DNA of 64,000 nucleotides from an uncultured Gammaproteobacteria bacterium (GTDB taxonomy: Bacteria > Pseudomonadota > Gammaproteobacteria > Nitrosococcales > Methylophagaceae), in contig CAJIZI010000001.1 of the NCBI GenBank assembly GCA_905181885.1, positions 699,765 through 763,764 of the forward strand, written 5' to 3'. A program made the translations under genes and the position numbers. Below, in pieces: positions 2,544 to 24,443 of this stretch (positions within the stretch are counted from its first letter, which is position 1; each line of letters starts with the position of its first letter). The notes under the pieces were generated by a model that was given only the letters and a program-made list of their open reading frames with translations, had not been told where the DNA came from and searched no databases.

Positions 2544-3794
2544 ATGGACTATTTTCATTATCAGTCAGATGAGTTGTTTGCCGAAGGCGTAGCCTTATCA
2601 GATGTGGCTAAGGAGTTCGGTACTCCAAGTTATGTCTATTCGAGAGCAACGGTTGAGCGTCATTGGCTGGCCTTTGATGAGGCCTTTTCATCATTACCAC
2701 ATTGCGTATGTTATGCCGTGAAAGCCAATTCTAACATAGCAATACTTAATGTGCTCGCACGTCTTGGATCAGGTTTTGATATCGTTTCAGGTGGTGAATT
2801 AACACGTGTATTGGCCGCTGGTGGACGCGCAGATAAGATAGTTTTTTCTGGCGTCGGGAAAACCGTTACAGAAATCAATTTCGCGCTACAAGAAGGTATC
2901 CGTTGTTTTAATGTTGAATCTATATCTGAACTGTTACGGATTAATAAAGTGGCTTCTGAGCTAAATTGTAAAGCACCAGTTTCCATAAGGGTTAACCCAG
3001 ATGTTGATGCGCAAACACACCCTTACATTTCAACTGGATTAAAAGAAAATAAGTTTGGCATTGCGATTGATGAGGCTGAAGAGGCCTATCTTCAAGCAAA
3101 AGAAATGACTCACATCAACATTATAGGGGTTGATTGTCATATAGGGTCGCAATTAACGACGGTGGAACCATTTGTCGATGCATTGCAACGTATTTTAACT
3201 CTCATTGACCGTTTGACAGAACTCGGGATTCATCTAAGTCATTTAGATATTGGAGGCGGACTAGGTATTACCTATAAAGAAGAAGTGCCTCCAACTCCCA
3301 GTGAATATGCTGAGGCGTTAACGGGATTATTAATTGATAGAAAATTAGAGATTTTGATGGAGCCTGGTCGGGCAATAGTTGGTAATGCAGGAGTGCTATT
3401 AACTCGAGTTGAGTATCTAAAAGCGACAGAGGATCGGCAGTTTGCGATTGTTGACGCCGGAATGAATGATTTATTACGTCCCGCTTTGTATCAATCTTGG
3501 CAGGCTATTCAATCGGTAAAAATCAATCAAAATATTGCCGATCAGAAATACGACATAGTTGGGCCTGTTTGTGAAACGGGTGATTTTCTAGGAAAAGATC
3601 GTGTCTTAGCACTTCAAGAGAATGATTTACTTGCTGTTAAATCAGCCGGTGCCTATGGTTTCACTATGAGTTCAAATTATAATTCACGGCCACGTGCTGC
3701 AGAAATTATGATTGACGGTGAGAATATGCACTGTATCCGTGAGCGCGAAACGCTGGCCTCGCTTTTTGTGGGTGAACAGGTTTTGCCAAAATGA
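2544..3794 (+). CDS. lysA: Diaminopimelate decarboxylase
   Basis: LysA decarboxylates meso-diaminopimelate to lysine using pyridoxal phosphate. The 416-residue protein has the PLP lysine in YAVKAN (K60), the phosphate-binding DIGGGLG loop, the EPGRAIVGNAG motif and the active-site cysteine motif GPVCETGDFLG, all in order. It is second in the lptM-lysA-dapF-DUF484-xerC operon, starting two bases after lptM and overlapping dapF by four bases (ATGA). Length and motifs are typical. Confidence 0.97.
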   Translation: MDYFHYQSDELFAEGVALSDVAKEFGTPSYVYSRATVERHWLAFDEAFSSLPHCVCYAVKANSNIAILNVLARLGSGFDIVSGGELTRVLAAGGRADKIVFSGVGKTVTEINFALQEGIRCFNVESISELLRINKVASELNCKAPVSIRVNPDVDAQTHPYISTGLKENKFGIAIDEAEEAYLQAKEMTHINIIGVDCHIGSQLTTVEPFVDALQRILTLIDRLTELGIHLSHLDIGGGLGITYKEEVPPTPSEYAEALTGLLIDRKLEILMEPGRAIVGNAGVLLTRVEYLKATEDRQFAIVDAGMNDLLRPALYQSWQAIQSVKINQNIADQKYDIVGPVCETGDFLGKDRVLALQENDLLAVKSAGAYGFTMSSNYNSRPRAAEIMIDGENMHCIRERETLASLFVGEQVLPK

Positions 3795-4654
3795 GTGCAA
3801 TGCTTTTATTTAGTAAAATGCATGGCTTAGGTAACGATTTTATTGTTATTGATAGATTGAGTCAAAAGTTTCCGGACCTAACAATATCTCAGCGTCGTTT
3901 TCTTGCTAATCGACACAGAGGTATTGGATGTGATCAGCTATTGATGGTGGAAGAGTCAAAGACAGAGGGTATTGATTTCAAATATCGTATCTTTAACTCA
4001 GATGGGGGGGAAGTTAGCCAATGTGGTAACGGCGCTCGCTGTTTTGCACGTTTTGTTTATAGTAAAGGTTTGACGCAGAAAAAGGTGATCGTCGTCGAAA
4101 CGAGTTCTGGCATCATCACCCTTACAATTGAAGATGTTGGGGAAACTGTCACTGTTGAGATGGGCCCCCCCGACTTCGATCCAAAACAAATACCCTTTGA
4201 AGTTGAGCACCAAGTTAAAGTTTATGACTTAACATTGTCTGATGATCGAAAAGTTTGTCTGGGTGTGCTGTCGATGGGTAACCCACATGCCGTTATGGTA
4301 GTTAATGATATTAACGCCACGGATGTAGCTCTTTTGGGGCCTATGATTGAAAGCCATACGAATTTTCCAGAACGCGTGAATGTGGGGTTTATGCAAGTTT
4401 TGAATAAAAGTGAGGTTATAGTTCGCGTTTATGAGCGTGGTGTAGGTGAAACACAAGCTTGCGGCACAGGCGCATGTGCTGCGGTAGTCCACGGTATACA
4501 GGTTGGTTTATTGGGTTCCAAAGTAAAAGTTAATTTAACTGGTGGTGAACTTGATATAGTGTGGATGGGTCAACAAGCACCTGTATGGATGTCAGGGCCA
4601 GCAATGCATGTATTTGATGGGGAGATCGAATGGGCGACGTTAAGCAGCCAATAG
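3791..4654 (+). CDS. dapF: Diaminopimelate epimerase
   Basis: DapF converts LL- to meso-diaminopimelate for lysine and peptidoglycan. The 287-residue protein shows KMHGLGNDFIVID at the N-terminus and the two catalytic cysteines, C78 in QCGNGARC and C224 in ACGTGAC. The annotated start overlaps the lysA stop as ATGA; a second ATG three codons on is also possible. The gene contains a run of seven G near 4004 and seven C near 4165, both in frame. It overlaps the next gene by 25 bases. Confidence 0.97.
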   Translation: MSAMLLFSKMHGLGNDFIVIDRLSQKFPDLTISQRRFLANRHRGIGCDQLLMVEESKTEGIDFKYRIFNSDGGEVSQCGNGARCFARFVYSKGLTQKKVIVVETSSGIITLTIEDVGETVTVEMGPPDFDPKQIPFEVEHQVKVYDLTLSDDRKVCLGVLSMGNPHAVMVVNDINATDVALLGPMIESHTNFPERVNVGFMQVLNKSEVIVRVYERGVGETQACGTGACAAVVHGIQVGLLGSKVKVNLTGGELDIVWMGQQAPVWMSGPAMHVFDGEIEWATLSSQ

Positions 4655-5337
4655 AAGTAGAAGAGGTGTTAGCTTATTTAGAGGCGAATCCTGAGTTTTT
4701 TTTACATCATCCCGATGGACTAGAACATTTAATTCTTTCGTCTGCACCGATAGGTACAATTTCTTTAGCTCAACGCCAAACAGCGAGACTGCAGGCTCGT
4801 AATAATAAGTTGCAAGAACAGTTACACTCCTTGATTGACACAGCGCGTCAAAATACCGAGCTGGAAGCGAAAGTCCATGAGCTCTGTTTAAGGTTACTAG
4901 ACACTACTGATTTTAACTCGCTATTACATCTATTGGTGACAGAACTTAAACAGCAATTCAATGCTGACGAAATAGGGTTACGACTTTTTTACAGCGAGTC
5001 TGAATACGTATTACCTGAAGGGACAGAAAATATAACACAATGTCATATTGATGATGAAAGCCTGATAGTCTTCGATAAAGTTCTTGATAGGCATGTGCCT
5101 GTCTGTGGACGACTATCTAACGCACAAAAAGCAGTTCTATTTGCTGAAGTAAAAAGCGAAGTGAAATCGATTGCGTGCATACCAATAGGTCATGATCCTT
5201 GCTGTGGATTATTAGCAATTGCCAGTTACGACCAAGATCGCTTTCATTCCGATATGGGAACTGACTATCTTGCATTTTTAGGAGAAGTTTTGATGCGTTT
5301 AATTAGAATGCATAAACAAGTTAACAATGACGAGTGA
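4630..5337 (+). CDS. DUF484 family protein (GAF-like)
   Basis: This 235-residue soluble protein belongs to the DUF484 family, nearly always found between dapF and xerC in gammaproteobacteria. The N-terminus has the family pattern VLAYLEANPEFFLHHPD. Residues 50-90 look like a coiled coil (QARNNKLQEQLHSL), and the rest is a GAF-like fold. The biochemical role is not established. It overlaps dapF by 25 bases and xerC by 11, so it is translationally coupled. A GGGGAG ribosome-binding site precedes the chosen ATG. Confidence 0.9.
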   Translation: MGDVKQPIEVEEVLAYLEANPEFFLHHPDGLEHLILSSAPIGTISLAQRQTARLQARNNKLQEQLHSLIDTARQNTELEAKVHELCLRLLDTTDFNSLLHLLVTELKQQFNADEIGLRLFYSESEYVLPEGTENITQCHIDDESLIVFDKVLDRHVPVCGRLSNAQKAVLFAEVKSEVKSIACIPIGHDPCCGLLAIASYDQDRFHSDMGTDYLAFLGEVLMRLIRMHKQVNNDE

Positions 5338-9435: not shown

Positions 9436-10384
9436 ATGTCGGTTTATACAGAAGTCACCCATATAGATTTGCTCGCATTTTTGAGCGATTATTCAGTGGG
9501 AAAGTTATTGTCTTACGAGGGCATTAGCGATGGTATAGAAAATACCAATTATTTTGTTACGACTGAACAAGGTAAATTTGTTTTAACCTTATTCGAACAG
9601 CATGAATTCGATGAAATGGGGTATTTTCTCGATGTTATGACTTTCTTTTTCGAGCATGGCATTCCCTCTGCACACCCTAAATCTGATAAACAAGGTCGTT
9701 ACCTTAAAAAGCTATCAAATAAACCTGCAGCCCTAGTCCAACGACTTGATGGCCGAGGTGTATGCGATGTCGCAAGTGTTGGCCAATGTCGGGAAATTGG
9801 AACAGTACTGGGACGGATGCATGTTGCAGGGCTTCAGTTTGGAAGACCACATGCTACTCAACGCGGTGCACAGTGGAGACAGCAGATAGCGGAAAAGCTG
9901 CTACCTATGTTAGATAGTACCTCGGCTAAAATAATGCGTGATGAACTTCATTTTCAAGCTGGCTACGGAGAATTAAATTTACCTTTTGGCCTTACTCATT
10001 CTGACTTATTTCGGGATAATGCTTTATTTGATGGTGATGAACTAAAAGGCATCATCGATTTTTACTATGCTTGTGATGAGTACTTAATATATGACCTAGC
10101 GGTTAGTATTAACGATTGGTGTATAGATGAAACAGGTCTATTAGAGGCGTCACGTTACCAAGCTATGATGGCTTGCTTATATTCAGCAGAGATCCTTAAC
10201 CGATGCAGAAAAAACGCACTGGAATTTGGTGCTGCGAGCGGCAGCGCTCCGTTTCTGGTTGTCGCGGTTACAAGATAAGTATTTTCCGCGCGAGGGGGAG
10301 CTGACCCAAATTAAAGATCCAAATGCGTTTTTAATGATCTTGCGGCAGCATCAAGAGCTGCCTTTAATTGTTGCAGTAGCATAA
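9436..10384 (+). pseudogene. thrB: Homoserine kinase ThrB (APH-type), frameshifted
   Basis: ThrB phosphorylates homoserine for threonine synthesis; this is the choline-kinase-like type found in Pseudomonas. The open frame gives 280 residues, with the N-terminal lobe and the catalytic LTHSDLFRDNALF and GIIDFYYAC motifs intact. From about 10170 the real C-terminus continues in the +2 frame (LAYIQQRSLTDAEK, then LRAAALRFWLSRL, then FPREGELTQIKDP) to a stop at 10384. Removing one base near 10165-10172 gives 315 residues, the family length. As read, the last 30 or so residues are nonsense. A sequencing error is as likely as a real mutation. The repaired end lies three bases before waaC. Confidence 0.85.
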
Positions 10385-10387
10385 ATA

Positions 10388-11427
10388 ATGCGAGTTTTAA
10401 TTATCAAGCTCACCTCAATGGGTGACCTTATGCATGCCTTGCCGGCATTAACGGATGCTGTTAAAGCAATTCCAGATATAGAGTTTGACTGGGTTGTCGA
10501 TAAGACTTTTTCTGAAGTCCCTCTCTGGCATCCTGCAGTTAAAAATGTAATTACCACAGCACACAGGCAGTGGAAAAAAAATGTTATTCAATCATGGCGG
10601 GAGGGTCTGTTTAGTCAATTCAACCAAAAGTTGAATAAGCACGACTACGATTTGGTTATTGACCTCCAAAATAACATGAAAAGTGCAACGGTATCTTGGC
10701 TCTACAAAGGTGATGTGCACGGTTTTGATAAGGGCTACTGCCGCGAAAGATTTGCCTACAAGGCCTATAAGCATCGCTATGCTATTCCTGAAAACCAGCA
10801 TGCAATAAAGAGGATCAGACAAATCCTGTCCCAGGCCTTGGCTTATCCCTCTAGTTGATACAGCCACCCGACTATGGCGCTAACTTTGAGCAATATGACC
10901 TGCCTAGGTTAAACTTTGTGCTGCCAGAAAAATATTTGATCTTTGTTCATAATGCCAGCTGGTTAAGCAAAATTTGGCCACTTGCCTCCTGGCAGGGTTT
11001 GATAAATAAGGTAGTTGAGCATGGCTACTCCGTTTTATTACCCTCTGGTAATGATGAAGAACATCAGCGCGCGCAACAGATTGCTGCTGTAAATAAGCGG
11101 GCTCATGCGCTACCTAGGCTTACACTAAATGAAATTGCCGCTTTAACATATCGTGCCGATGGTGCTATGTGTAGTGATACAGGACTTGCCCACCTGGCAG
11201 CGGTTGCTGGTATCCCAGCTCAAACAATTTATGGGGCAACCGATAGGGATTTGATTGGAACAGTGGGTCAATATCAACACCATATTGTTAGTGAAATGAA
11301 TTGTGCACCCTGTTACAAAAGGATCTGCCCAAGGCCAGAAGCGATTAATGGGGAGCCTGTATGTATGGATGAGATATCAATCGAAACAGCTTGGGATAGA
11401 CTCAAAGCCATTTTACCCGCACAATAA
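10388..11427 (+). pseudogene. waaC: LPS heptosyltransferase I (WaaC), frameshifted
   Basis: WaaC adds the first L-glycero-D-manno-heptose to Kdo of lipid A-Kdo. The first frame (10388-10858, 156 residues) starts RVLIIKLTSMGDLMHALPALTDA, a GT9 N-terminal domain very like WaaC. The second (10855-11427, 190 residues from a TTG) holds the C-terminal domain with SDTGLAHLAA, YGATDRDLIG and the CAPCYKRICP cysteine cluster. The frames meet at about 10845-10858. The second frame has a TAG just before the TTG, so a single missing base explains the break. Repaired length is about 346 residues. Reinitiation at the TTGA overlap is conceivable, but no good ribosome-binding site is seen. Confidence 0.85.
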
Positions 11428-15029: not shown

Positions 15030-15593
15030 CTAATCAGCGCCTATGCGCTGATCTAAGGCTTCGCACAACCAATGGCCAATAATGATATGGCCTTCTTGAA
15101 CGCGTGCTGTTTCATCAGTAGGAACTTGAATGCAACTATCTACACTATCAAGTAGTTCCCCCCCAGATTTACCAGTAAAAGCACAGGTCCAACAGCCCGA
15201 ATTTTTGGCAGTGCTAAGACCATTAATGACATTAGTACTGTTACCTGAAGTTGATAAGCCAATGGCAATATCTCCTGGTTTTGCGAGAGCTTGTATTTGT
15301 CGATCAAAGATAGTGTCGAAACTGTAATCATTTGCGTGAGCGGTCAAAATAGAGGTATCAGTGGTTAACGCAATAGCTGCGAGTGGCGCGCGCTGATTGT
15401 AATAGCGCACCACAAACTCAGCGGCTATGTGCTGAGCATCAGAAGCACTGCCTCCATTACCAAAAAATAATACTTTATTTCCATCAGCAAGGGTGGTTTC
15501 AACTTTATCAACAAGATCATTAATTTGTTGCTCAAGAGAAAAGAGACCTTCAACCATATTTTGGTGGCGAATAACAGTAGATTTAAATGACAC
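15030..15593 (-). CDS. gmhA: Phosphoheptose isomerase GmhA
   Basis: GmhA isomerises sedoheptulose 7-phosphate to D-glycero-D-manno-heptose 7-phosphate, the first committed step of LPS heptose synthesis. The 187-residue SIS-domain protein has the family motifs GNGGSASDAQHIAAEF, LSTSGNS and the C-terminal histidine motif QEGHIIIGHWLCE. It could be confused with DiaA, but its place beside hldE, waaC and waaF favours GmhA. It is divergent from the triple-kinase gene and is the first gene of its operon. Confidence 0.9.
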   Translation of the reverse strand: MSFKSTVIRHQNMVEGLFSLEQQINDLVDKVETTLADGNKVLFFGNGGSASDAQHIAAEFVVRYYNQRAPLAAIALTTDTSILTAHANDYSFDTIFDRQIQALAKPGDIAIGLSTSGNSTNVINGLSTAKNSGCWTCAFTGKSGGELLDSVDSCIQVPTDETARVQEGHIIIGHWLCEALDQRIGAD

Positions 15594-15715: not shown

Positions 15716-17938
15716 ATGAAGTTATCGGATATTTACCTTCGGTTGGACCTAGGAAAGTTATGGGGAGGAGAAGACGTTTTCTCCGCGGTACAGCAGTTAA
15801 AAGGTGATGTTTTTCGCCACAAAGAAGGCCGAAGAACATTACGATTTGAAGTTGCCGGGAAAAGTTATTTTCTTAAATACCATCAGGGTGTAGGTTGGCT
15901 AGAAATCGTCAAAAATTTATTACAACTTCGTAAGCCAATTATCAGTGCAAAAAATGAATGGCAGGCTATTAAATTCTTAGAAAAGAATGATATTGATACC
16001 ATGACTTTAGCGGGGTATGGAAAGCGAGGCTTTAACCCTGCGGAGATAGAATCATTTGTCATTACCGATGATTTAATTGATACCGTCAGTCTTGAGGATC
16101 TTGGACAGTATTGGACTGAAAAACCACCGACTTTTAATACTAAAAAGGCTTTGATTGAGAGGTTGGCTCTCACAAGCAAAAACATGCATGAAAATGGTAT
16201 GAATCACCGAGATTATTATCTTTGTCACTTTCTGCTAGATAAAGGCTTTGTTGAGCATAATACGTTTACTGCTGATACAAAATTATTTCTGATTGATTTA
16301 CACAGAGCGATACTTCGGCAGACAGGAAGAGTTGAGCAACGATGGCTAGTTAAAGATATAGGCGCTTTATATTTTTCTGCAATGGATGTTCCTTTAACGA
16401 GTCGTGACTTAATTCGTTTTGCAAAAACATACTCAGGACTTAATTTGCATGACATTATTTCTAAACAGGGTAGCTTTTGGACTAAAGTTAAGCTTCGAGC
16501 CAATAAAATGCGCTCTGCAAATGATGCTGCAATCAATCAAGAACTCAACCCAGTCAGGAGCTTTTTACAAGGGCAAAAAAACCTTATTGTGCCCTTTACG
16601 ATCCAAGCATTTGAACAATCATTTGAATGTCAAAAAGTCTTACGCTTATTACCGGGCAAGCGGCTAGTTGTTGAGGCCAAATCAAAGCGACATCACGTTG
16701 TGATTAAGTTATTTGCATCAGCAAAAAAGGGACAACGCGAATTAGATCGTGAATATCAAGGTTATCAGCTAGCAAAACAAGCGGGAGTATTGGTTCCTGA
16801 AAGATTATTTTCAGGTTATAACCAGCAGGGCTGTTTGATGATTGCTTACCAGTTTTGCAACAATGGGGAAACATTATTACAACTTGATGATACCCGTCGC
16901 AATGAGCAGCTGGGCGCTTTATTCAGCTGCATTAGTAAGTTACATGCCTATGGAGCTTATCAAGATGATATTCATTTGGACAATTTCTTATTAGCGGATA
17001 GTAAGCTGTACTTAATAGATTTAGGGTCAATAAAAAAACATCGCCCTGGTCAAAGCTTAAATGAGATAACAAGCCTGAACAATATAGCGCGATTGATTGC
17101 ACAGTTTACATTTGATGAGAGAGGTTTATTACGCCCTCATTTAGAACAATATTATCGAGAACGAGGTTCTGGCTATAACAATACAGCGCGTGCACGCCTT
17201 GCTAACCTAACAAATAAGGCATGGCAGAAACGTAAAAACAACTTCCTAAAAAAATGTTTCAGAAATTGTACAGATACAATTTATCATAAGAGTGCGAGCC
17301 AACAGTGGGCCTTTAATAGTGACTTCCTAAGTGGTGAGGCTGAGTCTTTTGTATTAGATATTGAAAAAATTGTTGCTGCAGGTGAATTCTTAAAAGAAGG
17401 TAAGTCGGCAACTGTAGTTCGGGCAGAAGTAGCAGGGGTGCAGCTGGTTATTAAGCGCTATAATATAAAAAACAAATGGCATTTCGTACGCCGTTGTTTT
17501 AGAGCAAGTCGAGCAGCGGCCTCATGGGAAAATGCCAATCTATTAAAGTTTATGGGTATATCAACAGCTCAACCAATTGGGTTTATTGAAAATAGAATTA
17601 TGGGGTTACGACATACCGCATATTTTATTTGTGAATATATACCCGCCAAGGAATTGTCGTCTATTTATGAGCAGCGAGTCCCAACTGATGATGAGTTGAA
17701 ACAGTTTCAACATATTTTTAGTTGTTTAAGAGAGTCAAAAGTGAGTCATGGCGACTTGAAAGCCAGCAACTTTTTAATTGGTGATAGTGGAAAAATAACA
17801 TTAATTGACTTGGATGCGATGAAGCAACATCGATATAAACTTACTTTTGAAAAAGCATTTTTTAAAGATCAGGTTCGCTTCGTAGCAAATTGGCGAGACG
17901 TTACGATAAAAAAAATTCTTGGGTCAATTATTTTTTAG
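15716..17938 (+). CDS. Three-domain LPS core kinase (RfaP + two kinase domains)
   Basis: A single open frame of 740 residues contains three kinase-like domains. Domain 1 (about 1-270) is RfaP/WaaP-like: LWGGEDVFSAVQQLKGDVFR, K54, HRDYYLCHFLL (D166) and LIDLHRA (D194). Domain 2 (about 285-500) has K331, the loop QDDIHLDNFLL (D418, N423) and LIDLGS (D435). Domain 3 (about 530-735) has K580, SHGDLKASNFL (D680, N685) and LIDLDAM (D698). WaaP phosphorylates O4 of heptose I. In Pseudomonas the corresponding kinases are separate genes. Domains 2 and 3 may act on other core positions; that is inference. It is cytoplasmic with no membrane segment. Confidence 0.88.
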   Translation: MKLSDIYLRLDLGKLWGGEDVFSAVQQLKGDVFRHKEGRRTLRFEVAGKSYFLKYHQGVGWLEIVKNLLQLRKPIISAKNEWQAIKFLEKNDIDTMTLAGYGKRGFNPAEIESFVITDDLIDTVSLEDLGQYWTEKPPTFNTKKALIERLALTSKNMHENGMNHRDYYLCHFLLDKGFVEHNTFTADTKLFLIDLHRAILRQTGRVEQRWLVKDIGALYFSAMDVPLTSRDLIRFAKTYSGLNLHDIISKQGSFWTKVKLRANKMRSANDAAINQELNPVRSFLQGQKNLIVPFTIQAFEQSFECQKVLRLLPGKRLVVEAKSKRHHVVIKLFASAKKGQRELDREYQGYQLAKQAGVLVPERLFSGYNQQGCLMIAYQFCNNGETLLQLDDTRRNEQLGALFSCISKLHAYGAYQDDIHLDNFLLADSKLYLIDLGSIKKHRPGQSLNEITSLNNIARLIAQFTFDERGLLRPHLEQYYRERGSGYNNTARARLANLTNKAWQKRKNNFLKKCFRNCTDTIYHKSASQQWAFNSDFLSGEAESFVLDIEKIVAAGEFLKEGKSATVVRAEVAGVQLVIKRYNIKNKWHFVRRCFRASRAAASWENANLLKFMGISTAQPIGFIENRIMGLRHTAYFICEYIPAKELSSIYEQRVPTDDELKQFQHIFSCLRESKVSHGDLKASNFLIGDSGKITLIDLDAMKQHRYKLTFEKAFFKDQVRFVANWRDVTIKKILGSIIF

Positions 17939-18983: not shown

Positions 18984-20144
18984 ATGAAATTAGCTGTTTG
19001 CTTGTATAAGTACTTCCCGTATGGAGGTTTGGCGCGTGACTTCGTCAGTATACTGAGTATTTGTCGCGATCATGGCTATCAGATTGATGTTTTTGTGATG
19101 GAGAGCCAAGGGGGGGTGCCCGAAGGCTTTAATATCGAAGTAATTCAGACTCAAGGGCGAAGCAATCATAGTAGAGTTGCTAGCTATATTGAACAATTAA
19201 AGCCAAAATTATTAGACGAGAGTTATGACTTAGTGATTGGCTTTAATAAAATTCCAGATCTAGATATTTATTATGCCGCTGATCCTTGTTATTTAGATCG
19301 GGTCAAAAATCAGCGAGATTACTGGTTGGCAAAATTTAGTCCTCGGGTGAAGTTTTATTCAAAGTGTGAAAGTAGAGTATTTAGCAACAGCAGCCATACC
19401 GTATCATTAATGATTTCTGACATTCAACGAGACCTGTTTAAAAAACATTATGATACGCCTGATGAAAGGCTAATTATGTTGCCTCCAGGCATCAATGATA
19501 ATAGGCGGAGACCAGATGACTGGCAGCACCAGAGACAGCATTTTCGCCAGCAGTTCTCCATAGCTGACAACGAGTTATTGATGTTGGCAGTTGGTACAGG
19601 GTTTAAAACGAAAGGCATAGACCGGTCAATTCAAGCGTTAGCCAATTTGCCATCAAATCTACGGATAAGAACACGCTTATTTATTATAGGCGAAGGCGAT
19701 AACAGTCCTTATCAAAAAGAAGCAAACCGATTAGCCATTGCTGACCAAGTGCAATTTTTTGGTGGTCGGGATGACATACCACAGTTTTTACTTGGTGCAG
19801 ACTTGTTATTACACCCTGCACGTAAAGAAAATACTGGCACAGTGATTTTAGAGGCAGTGGCCGCAGGTTTGCCCGTTCTGGTAGCAGGTGAGTGTGGCTA
19901 TGCTAAACATGTTAATAAGGCAAGAGCAGGCTTAGTGACAGATAGGCCTTTTAATCAAAATGAATTCGAACTTAAGCTACTAACGATGCTCGATAACGTG
20001 CGATTAAAGGATTGCTCCAAGAATGCTTTGGCTTATGCAGAGCAAGAAGATTTATATAGTATGCCGATAAAAGCAGCTGCTATCATTGAGCAGATGGCAA
20101 AAGCAAAGAAAAACAGTGAGAATACTAGGGAGAGGCAGAATTAA
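18984..20144 (+). CDS. waaG: LPS core glucosyltransferase WaaG
   Basis: WaaG adds the first outer-core hexose to heptose II. The 386-residue GT4 (GT-B) protein begins LAVCLYKYFPYGGLARDF, almost the E. coli WaaG start, and carries VIGFNKIPDLDIYYAADPCY. The donor-site region has TKGIDRSI, GEGDN and HPARKENTGTVILEA with the catalytic E-X7-E pattern. The gene includes a seven-G run near 19112, in frame. It overlaps or abuts galE and is divergent from the GT2. Confidence 0.93.
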   Translation: MKLAVCLYKYFPYGGLARDFVSILSICRDHGYQIDVFVMESQGGVPEGFNIEVIQTQGRSNHSRVASYIEQLKPKLLDESYDLVIGFNKIPDLDIYYAADPCYLDRVKNQRDYWLAKFSPRVKFYSKCESRVFSNSSHTVSLMISDIQRDLFKKHYDTPDERLIMLPPGINDNRRRPDDWQHQRQHFRQQFSIADNELLMLAVGTGFKTKGIDRSIQALANLPSNLRIRTRLFIIGEGDNSPYQKEANRLAIADQVQFFGGRDDIPQFLLGADLLLHPARKENTGTVILEAVAAGLPVLVAGECGYAKHVNKARAGLVTDRPFNQNEFELKLLTMLDNVRLKDCSKNALAYAEQEDLYSMPIKAAAIIEQMAKAKKNSENTRERQN

Positions 20145-21869: not shown

Positions 21870-23595
21870 CTATTCTTTAGTAACTAATATGTCTTCCATT
21901 ACCAAATATTCAAGATCTGAGCCATAAAACATCTTTAAAGCATCAGTCGGGCTGCATACCATCGGTTCGCCACGTCGGTTGAGTGATGTATTCAGTAGCA
22001 CACCATTTCCCGTAAGCTTTTCCATTTCTTGTAAGAGTTCATAGTAACGAGGATTAGTGGCTTTAGTGACAATTTGAGCGCGAGCCGTACCATCTTCATG
22101 GACTACTTCGGGTATACGTGATTTCCATTCTTCAGCAACATCGAAAGTGAACGTCATATAGGGACTAGGATGTTCTGTTTGTAAAATCTCAGATGCAGAA
22201 GTATCTATAATACTCGGGCAAAATGGACGCCAGCGTTCTCGATATTTAATTTGGGCATTAATACGGTCAGCGACGCCAGAATGATTTGGGCTGCCTAAAA
22301 TACTTCGATTACCTAATGCTCGAGGCCCAAATTCCATACGGCCTTGAAACCAAGAAATAGGGTTACCGTCATGGAGAAGTTTTGCTGTTTCTTTGCAAAC
22401 ATCTTCTAGCCTTGTCCATTTAGTGTCTTTTGCATAGGCCTCACAAGCATCGATACACTCTTGAGTGGTATAAGAAGGACCTAAATAGACATGTTCCATT
22501 TTTTCAACAGGCACCCCAGCCGCATTGAGATGCGAAACTGGCAGCACCAATGGCTGTACCAGCATCACTAGCTGCTGGCTGAACGAAGAGTTCTTTGACG
22601 CCCTCCATTGCAATAATACGCTGGTTTAACTTTACATTCAGGGCGACGCCTCCGGCAAAACAAACTTTGCCAGTTTCGCGAATAATATCACCAAGGTGAT
22701 ACTCAATTAGATGGAGTGCTGTTTTTTCTAATAAGTCTTGAATGCTAGCGGCATAATCGATATAGGGATCATCAATCTCATCGCCATCACGCATTGGTCC
22801 TAGCCATTCTAATAGTTTTTTACTAAAAAAATAACCCTTACCATCTTTTTTATACCGTCTTGTGCCTAGGGTGTTTACAAGCTCAGTATTGACTTTAAAC
22901 TCACCATCACCAAATTCAATGAGCTGTGAAAAGTCGAAGCGAGTCGCATCACCGTATGGTGCCATTCCCATAACTTTAAACTCACCATCCAACATTTCAA
23001 AGCCAAGGAACTCAGTTAGAGCACCGTACATTCCGCCTAGAGAATCTGGGTCATAAAACTCTTTAATTTTATGGATCTTGCCATTTTCACCGTAACCAAA
23101 AAAAGTCGTGGCATACTCACCCTTACCATCAATGCCGATAATGGCTGTTTTTTCTTTAAAACCACTTAAATGGTATGCACTACTTGCATGAGCTAAGTGG
23201 TGTTCAACAGGCACAAACTTAACACGATCGCTACCGATACCTAGGTCATCGAGCAATTTCATAACACTCTTGTGATTGCGTTTATAGCGTCTATTACCAT
23301 TAAAAATCGCTGTTAAACCTCGATCAGGTGCGTACCAGTAACGCTTGGCATAGTGCCAGCGAGCGGGGGATTTCAGATCTATTTCTGAATATGGAAAAGC
23401 TACGACGTCAATATCTTTAGGTGAAATCCCTGCTTGTTTGATACAAAATTGAGTAGCATGGTAAGCCATCCTCCCTCTAGCATGCTTATCTCGGAGGAAA
23501 CGTTCTTCCTCAGCAGCAGCAATCAATTTTCCATCAATATAAAGTGCTGCTGAAGCATCGTGATTTACAGCACCGGATAAGCCTAATACGATCAT
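21870..23595 (-). pseudogene. Carbamoyltransferase (NodU/CmcH family), frameshifted
   Basis: The family transfers a carbamoyl group from carbamoyl phosphate to a sugar hydroxyl; in Pseudomonas a homologue carbamoylates LPS heptose II. The first frame (23595-22504, 363 residues) has GLSGAVNHDASAAL, the HHLAHASSAYHLSGF histidines and CFAGGVALNVKLN. The second frame (through 21870) carries the C-terminal domain with WFQGRMEFGPRALGNRSIL and LLNTSLNRRGEPMVCSP. The coding sense passes from one frame to the other at about 22524-22545. Removing one base restores about 574 residues (GAASFAS-NAAGVPVEKM). Sequence error or real mutation cannot be told apart here. Confidence 0.85.
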
Positions 23596-23666: not shown

Positions 23667-24443
23667 CTATTTTGATTTTTTCAGGATGCGATTTTTAATT
23701 TGAGACCAGAGCTTTTTAGATTTTATCGATAGCTTCGCTTCATTGACATATGCCTTGAAAAAGGTGATTTGTTCTTTGTCAGTCAATTCGGTCATTTGAC
23801 GTCGTAAAGTCGCTAAGTCCCTGAGAGATGCTGTCTGTTTAAAAACACGACGCTTCGCTGTTTCCAAATCAATAATTCTTATATCCCAATTATCACCAAG
23901 TGGCTTAGCAAAAATATGCTTGGGATGAAGACTATTATGTTGTATGCGATGTTGATGCATATGATAAAGGACTTTAGCTGTTTCCTTGAATAAAGCTTGC
24001 CGATGTTTAGATCCAATTATCATACTAGAGCCTGATTTATGTAGTAAGACATTCAGTGGTTGATAACCTACAAGCTCTTTAGTTGCAATTATTGCTTGCG
24101 GCTTACCATTATTTGAGCGTGCACCAAAATAAACTAATTCTGGTGTCGGAATATCATACTTATGGAAAAGCCTTAAATTGTTGTATTCTCTAATAAATGT
24201 AGCCGCACCTTTAATGGGGTGACGCCAAGTACGACTTAGATGATTTTCTTGCCTTTTTATAAAAATAAACACAGGGTCATCATTAGTTTGTTTTAAGGAG
24301 ACTTTGACAACTCCACTCCATCCGCCGCGGCGAATGTTTGGCTCTTCAAACCAATCTGCTTTTAACCGCCATAAAGATCCATAAGTCGCCAAGTTGTTTT
24401 TACTTAATAGGGTTTGCCACCCCTCTCCCAAATAATCTGTCAT
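23667..24443 (-). CDS. InaA-type lipopolysaccharide kinase
   Basis: A 258-residue member of the LPS kinase (Kdo/WaaP, InaA) family. It shows the nucleotide-lobe lysine in FIFIKRQENHLSRTWRHP, the helix KGAATFIREYNNL with a conserved glutamate, the loop HNSLHPKHIF where the usual HxD aspartate is replaced, and the metal-binding IIDLETAK. InaA relatives also have a PKHIF loop without that aspartate, so this may be family-typical. It lies four bases upstream of the membrane glycosyltransferase start region's neighbour on the same strand, inside the core locus. Confidence 0.82.
   Translation of the reverse strand: MTDYLGEGWQTLLSKNNLATYGSLWRLKADWFEEPNIRRGGWSGVVKVSLKQTNDDPVFIFIKRQENHLSRTWRHPIKGAATFIREYNNLRLFHKYDIPTPELVYFGARSNNGKPQAIIATKELVGYQPLNVLLHKSGSSMIIGSKHRQALFKETAKVLYHMHQHRIQHNSLHPKHIFAKPLGDNWDIRIIDLETAKRRVFKQTASLRDLATLRRQMTELTDKEQITFFKAYVNEAKLSIKSKKLWSQIKNRILKKSK

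Follow-up and report, generated by a model that had tools for sequence, protein, structure and literature searches.

Positions 15716-17938 of the forward strand of the window, by which we mean the whole stretch of 64,000 nucleotides that was analysed, hold a genuine and conserved fusion of two known neighbours, waaP and a gene of the PA5006 type. The organism is a relative of the methylotroph Methylophaga and very likely belongs to the Methylophagaceae, the family referred to below. The frame runs from ATG to stop over 740 codons with zero internal stops, which by length corresponds to a chain of ~84 kDa. As the preliminary description had proposed, it encodes a single chain of three consecutive kinase-type domains, the first of which is WaaP, and this intact frame recurs in 7 further genomes. 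The same description regarded the protein as a joining of three kinases that are separate genes in Pseudomonas; this part has to be abandoned, since domains 2 and 3 already constitute one gene of the PA5006 type, in Pseudomonas too. No account of a chain combining WaaP with a PA5006-type protein was found in a literature search that covered titles and the beginnings of abstracts, with subscription papers outside its reach. Such a chain is also absent from the available parts of five papers (PMC8005017, PMC6147952, PMC8707732, PMC8982409 and PMC5348532), and what is cited from them below refers to those parts. The features of the gene are as follows.

15716..17938 (+): tri-kinase gene (WaaP plus PA5006-type two-kinase module), 740 aa; open frame; 7 other genomes also have this architecture in an open frame
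15716..16525 (+): domain 1 (residues ~1-270), heptose(I) kinase WaaP/RfaP by family; matches to NF011703, PF06293 and 6dfl
16526..16555 (+): linker (residues ~271-280); alike in 8 fused genomes, pLDDT dip to 60
16556..17257 (+): domain 2 (residues ~281-514), PA5006-type N-terminal kinase domain; conserved catalytic residues, fold, and profile match to the other core kinases
17258..17935 (+): domain 3 (residues ~515-740), PA5006-type C-terminal kinase domain; PF06293, fold matches and motifs

Domain 1 is a member of the WaaP family

Domain 1 is by family a WaaP/RfaP heptose(I) kinase, for which phosphate transfer to HepI is predicted. It scores 337.5 bits against NF011703, the NCBIfam equivalog model of RfaP (cut-off 170), and thus falls within the curated family. 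The Kdo/WaaP profile PF06293 (cut-off 21.3) matches the whole protein at 186 bits and domain 1 alone at 149 bits, while the sequence match of domain 1 to PDB entry 6dfl has an E value of 2.4e-68, the next solved match of the protein being at 0.0097. The residues K54, E81, H164-R165-D166, H171 and D194-L195-H196 form a motif that is invariant in 25/25 WaaP rows and reproduces the pattern of Lys, alpha-C Glu, HRD, metal-binding His and DLH of P. aeruginosa WaaP (PMC6147952, available text).

The Asp pairs singled out beforehand (D166/D194, D418/D435 and D680/D698) are indeed the catalytic-loop and metal-binding aspartates of three kinase cores. Of the full motif set that had been ascribed to every domain, the Lys and Asp residues are present throughout, but the Asn is missing from domain 1, where His171 takes the second metal position. 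A His at this position is normal for WaaP, being H168 in the P. aeruginosa protein (PMC6147952, available text).

Domains 2 and 3 carry two further kinase cores

Comparison with kinase profiles, which had been suggested as a check, gave a divided answer: domain 3 alone exceeds the PF06293 cut-off of 21.3 with 33 bits, whereas domain 2 alone stays under it with 15.7 bits, and both have kinase folds. Matches of the two domains to the NCBIfam models of RfaY, KdkA and Bud32 lie far under the cut-offs. Domain 2 alone reaches 23 bits against RfaY/WaaY (NF007684, cut-off 248) and domain 3 alone 36 bits against KdkA (NF002475, cut-off 142; 35 bits in the genome search), so that neither is a member of the family in question by these models. 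Domain 3 alone also scores 30.5 bits against Pkinase, just under the cut-off. In a profile comparison, domain 2 matched the other core kinases, and domain 3 was closest to a WapP-like set (E 2.6e-19) that had been gathered via our own domain profiles, which favours this match.

Catalytic residues were counted in a 61-row alignment of two-kinase proteins, which includes named Pseudomonas, Stutzerimonas and Azomonas rows. In domain 2 they are K331, E346, Q416-x-D418-x-H420-x-x-N423 and D435; of these, K331, D418, H420, N423 and D435 are conserved in 61/61 rows, E346 in 58/61 and Q416 in 59/61. In domain 2 the His of HRD is replaced by Gln416, a departure from the HxD-type loop expected of each domain. 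The QDDIHLDN loop had been described as unusual; it is instead a family signature, with the Gln in 59 of the 61 rows, that of the window included. Domain 3 possesses K580, H678-G679-D680-x-K682-x-x-N685 and D698-L699-D700, with K580, H678, G679, K682, N685 and D698 found in every row and D680 in 60/61. The alpha-C Glu position of this domain, as placed by our alignment, is S603 here and S, A or T in 61/61 rows. Hence, the protein contains both domains in order with the Q-x-D-x-H-x-x-N and H-G-D-x-K-x-x-N loops that characterise the 61 rows. Domains 2 and 3 are presumably active as kinases on the heptose region of the core, although the lack of the alpha-C Glu in domain 3 and the Gln in place of the HRD His in domain 2 mean that either of them may have a weak or non-catalytic role.

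Two other origins for these domains were considered and set aside. A recent tandem duplication of one kinase does not agree with the profile comparison, in which the three domains show no more than a remote relationship to one another. A defence-system kinase was considered because of PADLOC matches (best MkoA, 41.5 bits; PD-T4-6, 32.8 bits); these lie around the kinase motifs and were taken as generic kinase similarity.

Predicted structure

The two-domain part (463 residues) was modelled from the 61-row alignment with a mean pLDDT of 95.1 and a pTM of 0.91, and its fold was compared by means of a Foldseek list followed by alignment of 999 chains. The model of domain 3 superimposes on PRPK (Z 18.1, 3.1 Å, 192 residues) and on WaaP 6dfl (Z 15.8, 3.0 Å, 193 residues), and that of domain 2 on Bud32 (Z 15.4, 3.3 Å, 174 residues) and Rio1 (Z 15.2, 3.5 Å, 188 residues). 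The model of the whole chain, whose best fold match is 6dfl_A (E 9.4e-23), has a pLDDT of 93.0 and a pTM of 0.65, with pLDDT falling to 60 in block 271-280. The models thus predict three folded domains, with a WaaP domain that would be loosely placed against the two-kinase module, as the pTM of 0.65 suggests.

Fused and split forms in the genus and family

A homologue search in 59 genomes (that of the window included) returned matches at E <= 0.001 in 28, some of them merely weak. In 7 genomes of the genus besides that of the window, the full chain forms a single open frame (741-768 residues), with a linker that is alike in all 8 fused genomes and of the SANDAAINQELNP / NADNAVVIESLNP type. An assembly error, which had been named as a possible source of the fused frame, is dismissed by this survey, in which 7 other assemblies have the frame open as well, even though other genes of the window are broken.

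WaaP itself is present in 42 of the 57 family genomes, in frames of more than 700 residues in 8 and in frames of 266-330 residues in 34. In all 14 split genomes that were examined, out of the 34 with a short waaP, the two-kinase gene lies directly beside waaP; the next gene was read directly in 12 of these and taken from the search table for G031 and G034. In G027, G015 and G033, waaP and the two-kinase gene even share one reading frame, separated by nothing but stop codons. Read-through of the stop in split genomes was rejected as an explanation, since in G027 the stop is followed by one codon and then an ATG. As the two-kinase gene is already a separate neighbour of waaP in the split relatives, domains 2 and 3 were one gene before the fusion, and the event is a single fusion of two genes, waaP and PA5006. 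A tree of 32 two-kinase proteins places the 8 fused rows in one clade inside the family (support 95/96), which points to one origin of the fusion within the genus. Like the recurrence of the architecture, the dN/dS values speak against chance and for selection: between the two closest genomes (G000 and G022), linker aside, they are 0.149 in domain 1, 0.151 in domain 2 and 0.314 in domain 3; the other four pairs had dS >1 or were saturated.

Other fusions of core enzymes

Outside the family, WaaP, domain 2 and domain 3 share one frame of 817 aa in G382 and one of 728 aa in G175, and WaaP is joined to domain 3 in one frame in G056, G118, G150, G266 and G365. Domain 3 is also found by itself next to WaaP. 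In the tree, G382 and G175 fall outside the family on long branches and with unsure placement, and the starred branches require no more than a single change among the ten triple-fused rows. A separate origin of the triple fusion outside the family is therefore likely, with a single origin still compatible with the tree.

Further arrangements of core enzymes were also seen. Locus L171 encodes, at 2603-4771 (+), a WapP-like domain followed by domains 2 and 3 (723 residues), after a 653-residue frame that ends in WaaP. A GT4 glycosyltransferase and WaaP share one frame in G398 and G183 (L073 4878-6827 (+), 650 aa; L074 1143-3293 (-), 717 aa). Close to the tri-kinase gene, several relatives encode a protein of 745-757 residues (L076 3957-6194, and similarly in L077, L078, L079 and L081); it has a C-terminal Kdo-family kinase domain preceded by ~500 residues that gave no Pfam match in the one protein tested, and it likely has a counterpart, in two frames, on C3 in the genome of the window. 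Taken together, the triple fusions, the frames of WaaP plus domain 3, the L171 protein and the frames of GT4 plus WaaP indicate that the joining of core enzymes is not rare, and that the triple of the window is one of several forms.

PA5006-type identity of domains 2 and 3 and co-occurrence with WaaP

In PAO1 the gene order is waaP, wapP, wapQ, PA5006 (PMC8005017), and PA5006, which ends at residue 493, is part of an operon with waaP, wapP and wapQ (PMC8707732); the available text of both papers calls it a putative kinase. For the position of the two-kinase gene we relied on G201 and 25 named loci as stand-ins for PAO1, the scanned neighbourhoods being 40 from a class sample and the best 80 of at least 574 confirmed named loci. 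In G201, a WaaP that is 79% identical to that of P. aeruginosa is followed by a WapP-like protein, an InaA/WapQ-like protein and a two-kinase protein of 496 aa. Of 25 named loci of Pseudomonas, Stutzerimonas, Azomonas or Halopseudomonas, 24 share a common layout, in which waaP is followed by two single kinases (12 loci) or by one detected single kinase (12 loci) and then by the two-kinase gene; the remaining locus is ended by a contig edge. By position, the two-kinase gene is thus a member of the LPS core cluster, close to waaP. Its place in the gene order and its PA5006-like length identify domains 2 and 3 as PA5006-type, at 28-35% identity to the Pseudomonadaceae proteins. The WapP-like and WapQ-like proteins are encoded by genes other than that of domains 2 and 3. 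A fusion of waaP, wapP and wapQ was accordingly discarded, given the PA5006 type of domains 2 and 3 and the single-kinase genes that intervene before waaP in Pseudomonas-type loci. PA5006 also appears in a table of LPS phosphorylation genes, as 4.3- and 4.8-fold up in two samples, which has no bearing on mechanism.

In the class sample of 369 genomes, 50 have a two-kinase match at E <= 1e-15 and 45 a WaaP over the curated cut-off. At these thresholds a PA5006-type match is found in 40/45 WaaP genomes as against 10/324 others (Fisher p 1.6e-38), and the full two-domain form, judged to span both domains in 30 genomes, in 28/45 as against 2/324 (p 5e-28), p values that overstate independence because the sampled genomes are related. 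Five WaaP genomes are without a PA5006-type match at E 1e-15, and ten matches are without WaaP.

Gene neighbourhood and the rest of the genome

The following genes flank the fusion in the window.

15030..15593 (-): gmhA-like phosphoheptose isomerase, upstream neighbour; NF010546 190.8 bits, under the cut-off of 276; same position in 10/10 neighbourhoods
18984..20144 (+): GT4 glycosyltransferase, downstream neighbour; PF00534; in 10/10 neighbourhoods
21870..23595 (-): carbamoyltransferase-like, in two frames here; NodU matches of 37 and 124 bits, under cut-off
23667..24443 (-): InaA/WapQ-type Kdo-family protein; PF06293 128 bits; NF007383 74 bits, under the cut-off of 235

Fused and split neighbourhoods are alike: in 10/10, gmhA, an FAD oxidoreductase and an aldo/keto reductase lie on one side and GT4, galE and yrbL on the other. 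The carbamoyltransferase is found in 9/10, open there as 578-604 aa, and the InaA-like protein in 8/10. By its position, and following the naming in the available text of PMC8005017, the carbamoyltransferase-like gene may be termed WapO-like. Upstream, the window contains hldE (673 bits, cut-off 521) and waaC in two pieces. The score of galE is over its cut-off. An Rfam scan of the window gave four matches, all of them tRNAs at 58-60 kb.

Some genes of the window are broken: waaC (10388-11427) and the carbamoyltransferase (21870-23595) each consist of two overlapping frames, and thrB (9436-10278) falls short of its length in G022, a close relative in which the waaC, carbamoyltransferase and thrB frames are whole (346, 578 and 317 aa). 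These are either sequencing indels or recent pseudogenes.

The genome of the window has four Kdo-family matches, namely two in the tri-kinase, the InaA-like protein at 23667-24443 and the broken gene on C3, none of which we read as WapP-type. The catalytic Asp of the InaA/WapQ-type protein is replaced (HNSLHPKH). Proteins of the same kind occur in L067, L070, L079 and L159, and in one sorted set of such rows 30 of 46 have Cys, Ser or Ala for the HRD Asp; column counts suggest that the 16 rows with Asp are mostly WapP-like strays. To judge from these replacements, InaA/WapQ-type proteins may be pseudokinases. Since the remaining Kdo-family matches are an InaA-like protein lacking the catalytic Asp and a broken gene, the tri-kinase may carry the whole of heptose phosphorylation in this organism.

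Proposed function and alternatives

The first heptose is the target of WaaP, whose step seems to be a prerequisite for the phosphates that the core receives later (PMC6147952, available text). P. aeruginosa depends on inner-core phosphates for its viability, and these phosphates lend support to the outer membrane (PMC8005017 and PMC6147952, available parts). Probably, the protein is a WaaP with a tethered PA5006-type module, which provides the HepI phosphate and then further inner-core phosphates on the same molecule, with domains 2 and 3 active. Domain 1 would phosphorylate heptose(I) of lipid A-core on the inner side of the inner membrane. Domains 2 and 3, as two further ATP-dependent kinases of the Kdo/WaaP-RIO-Bud32 superfamily, would then add phosphate to the inner core, either on other heptose hydroxyls or on existing phosphates. 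The single chain would allow sequential action on one LPS molecule and would fix the kinases at a 1:1 ratio. The catalytic activity of domains 2 and 3, the heptose region as their substrate and the sequence of the steps are all inferred; a coupling of several heptose phosphorylations through the fusion, as was proposed at the outset, is plausible.

A more specific version is a three-step line, in which the HepI phosphate set by WaaP is extended by the two PA5006-type domains to the di- and triphosphates of Pseudomonas-type cores. We consider this improbable; if true, the fusions would reveal the function of PA5006. To our knowledge, the enzymes that make these di- and triphosphates are unassigned. 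The core of P. syringae pv. phaseolicola has phosphates at HepI 2 and 4 and at HepII 6, those of P. aeruginosa and DC3000 also have di- and triphosphates, and Pseudomonas cores have mono-, di- and triphosphates (PMC8005017, available text). In the main, broader reading, the PA5006-type module would supply some of these phosphates once WaaP has acted, and in the window's protein it would do so in cis. The literature search found no core structure for Methylophaga.

The conservation pattern of the module also fits a different division of labour, in which domain 1 and one other domain are active and the remaining one, for example domain 3, is a pseudokinase for regulation, docking or dimerisation. 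The alpha-C Glu is lacking from domain 3 in 61/61 rows and the HRD His of domain 2 is Gln in 59/61, and InaA/WapQ-type proteins of the same clusters, which lack the catalytic Asp, suggest that pseudokinases may exist in this system. Furthermore, in two-hybrid assays PA5006 self-associates, and its residues 300-493, the fragment within which domain 3 falls by length, bound the EamA-like transporter PA2576 (PMC8707732, available text). This binding to a membrane transporter makes a docking role of domain 3 a serious rival. However, both domains keep the Lys, catalytic Asp, Asn and metal Asp almost without exception, and domain 3 is also found alone beside WaaP or fused to it, and we judge a pseudokinase in the module to be rather unlikely. 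It is improbable that the module phosphorylates Kdo or a core-assembly protein instead of heptose. The best NCBIfam model of domain 3 alone is the Kdo kinase KdkA, at 36 bits and far under 142, with Pkinase at 30.5 bits; in the genome of the window no gene exceeds the KdkA cut-off, and domain 3 is the best of five matches. Against such a target, the module is tied to the heptose kinase WaaP by neighbourhood, fusion and co-occurrence, and the WapP-like set is the nearest match to the profile of domain 3 (E 2.6e-19), allowing for the bias of that set toward our domain profiles.

Further phosphorylation of the heptose region by domains 2 and 3 is hence the reading that we retain. The genus and two distant genomes have PA5006-type kinases fused to WaaP, and kinases of this type are largely confined to WaaP-bearing genomes; this amounts to a functional link of the fusion type. 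The value of the fusion lies in this link to PA5006, a putative core kinase whose job becomes testable.

Comparison with known systems

The protein resembles P. aeruginosa WaaP (PDB 6dfl) and other WaaP/RfaP proteins in its domain 1, which is over the NCBIfam cut-off and has the HRD, the DLH and the His-for-Asn exchange, but unlike these it is extended by ~470 residues that contain two more kinase cores, the separate WaaP frames of the family being 266-330 residues long. With KdkA, RfaY, Bud32/PRPK and the RIO kinases, domains 2 and 3 share the fold, the catalytic scheme and weak profile matches, whereas their scores are far under the curated NCBIfam cut-offs and their partners are others. The frames of G382 and G175 and those of WaaP plus domain 3 have the same domain order in one frame; they come from other families of the class and have other linkers or are without domain 2. 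The closest counterpart of the module is the PA5006-type kinase of the Pseudomonas core cluster, which has the two domains, their order, the catalytic signatures and the cluster in common with it at 28-35% identity, but which in Pseudomonas is a separate gene of putative activity, set apart from waaP by one or two single-kinase genes.
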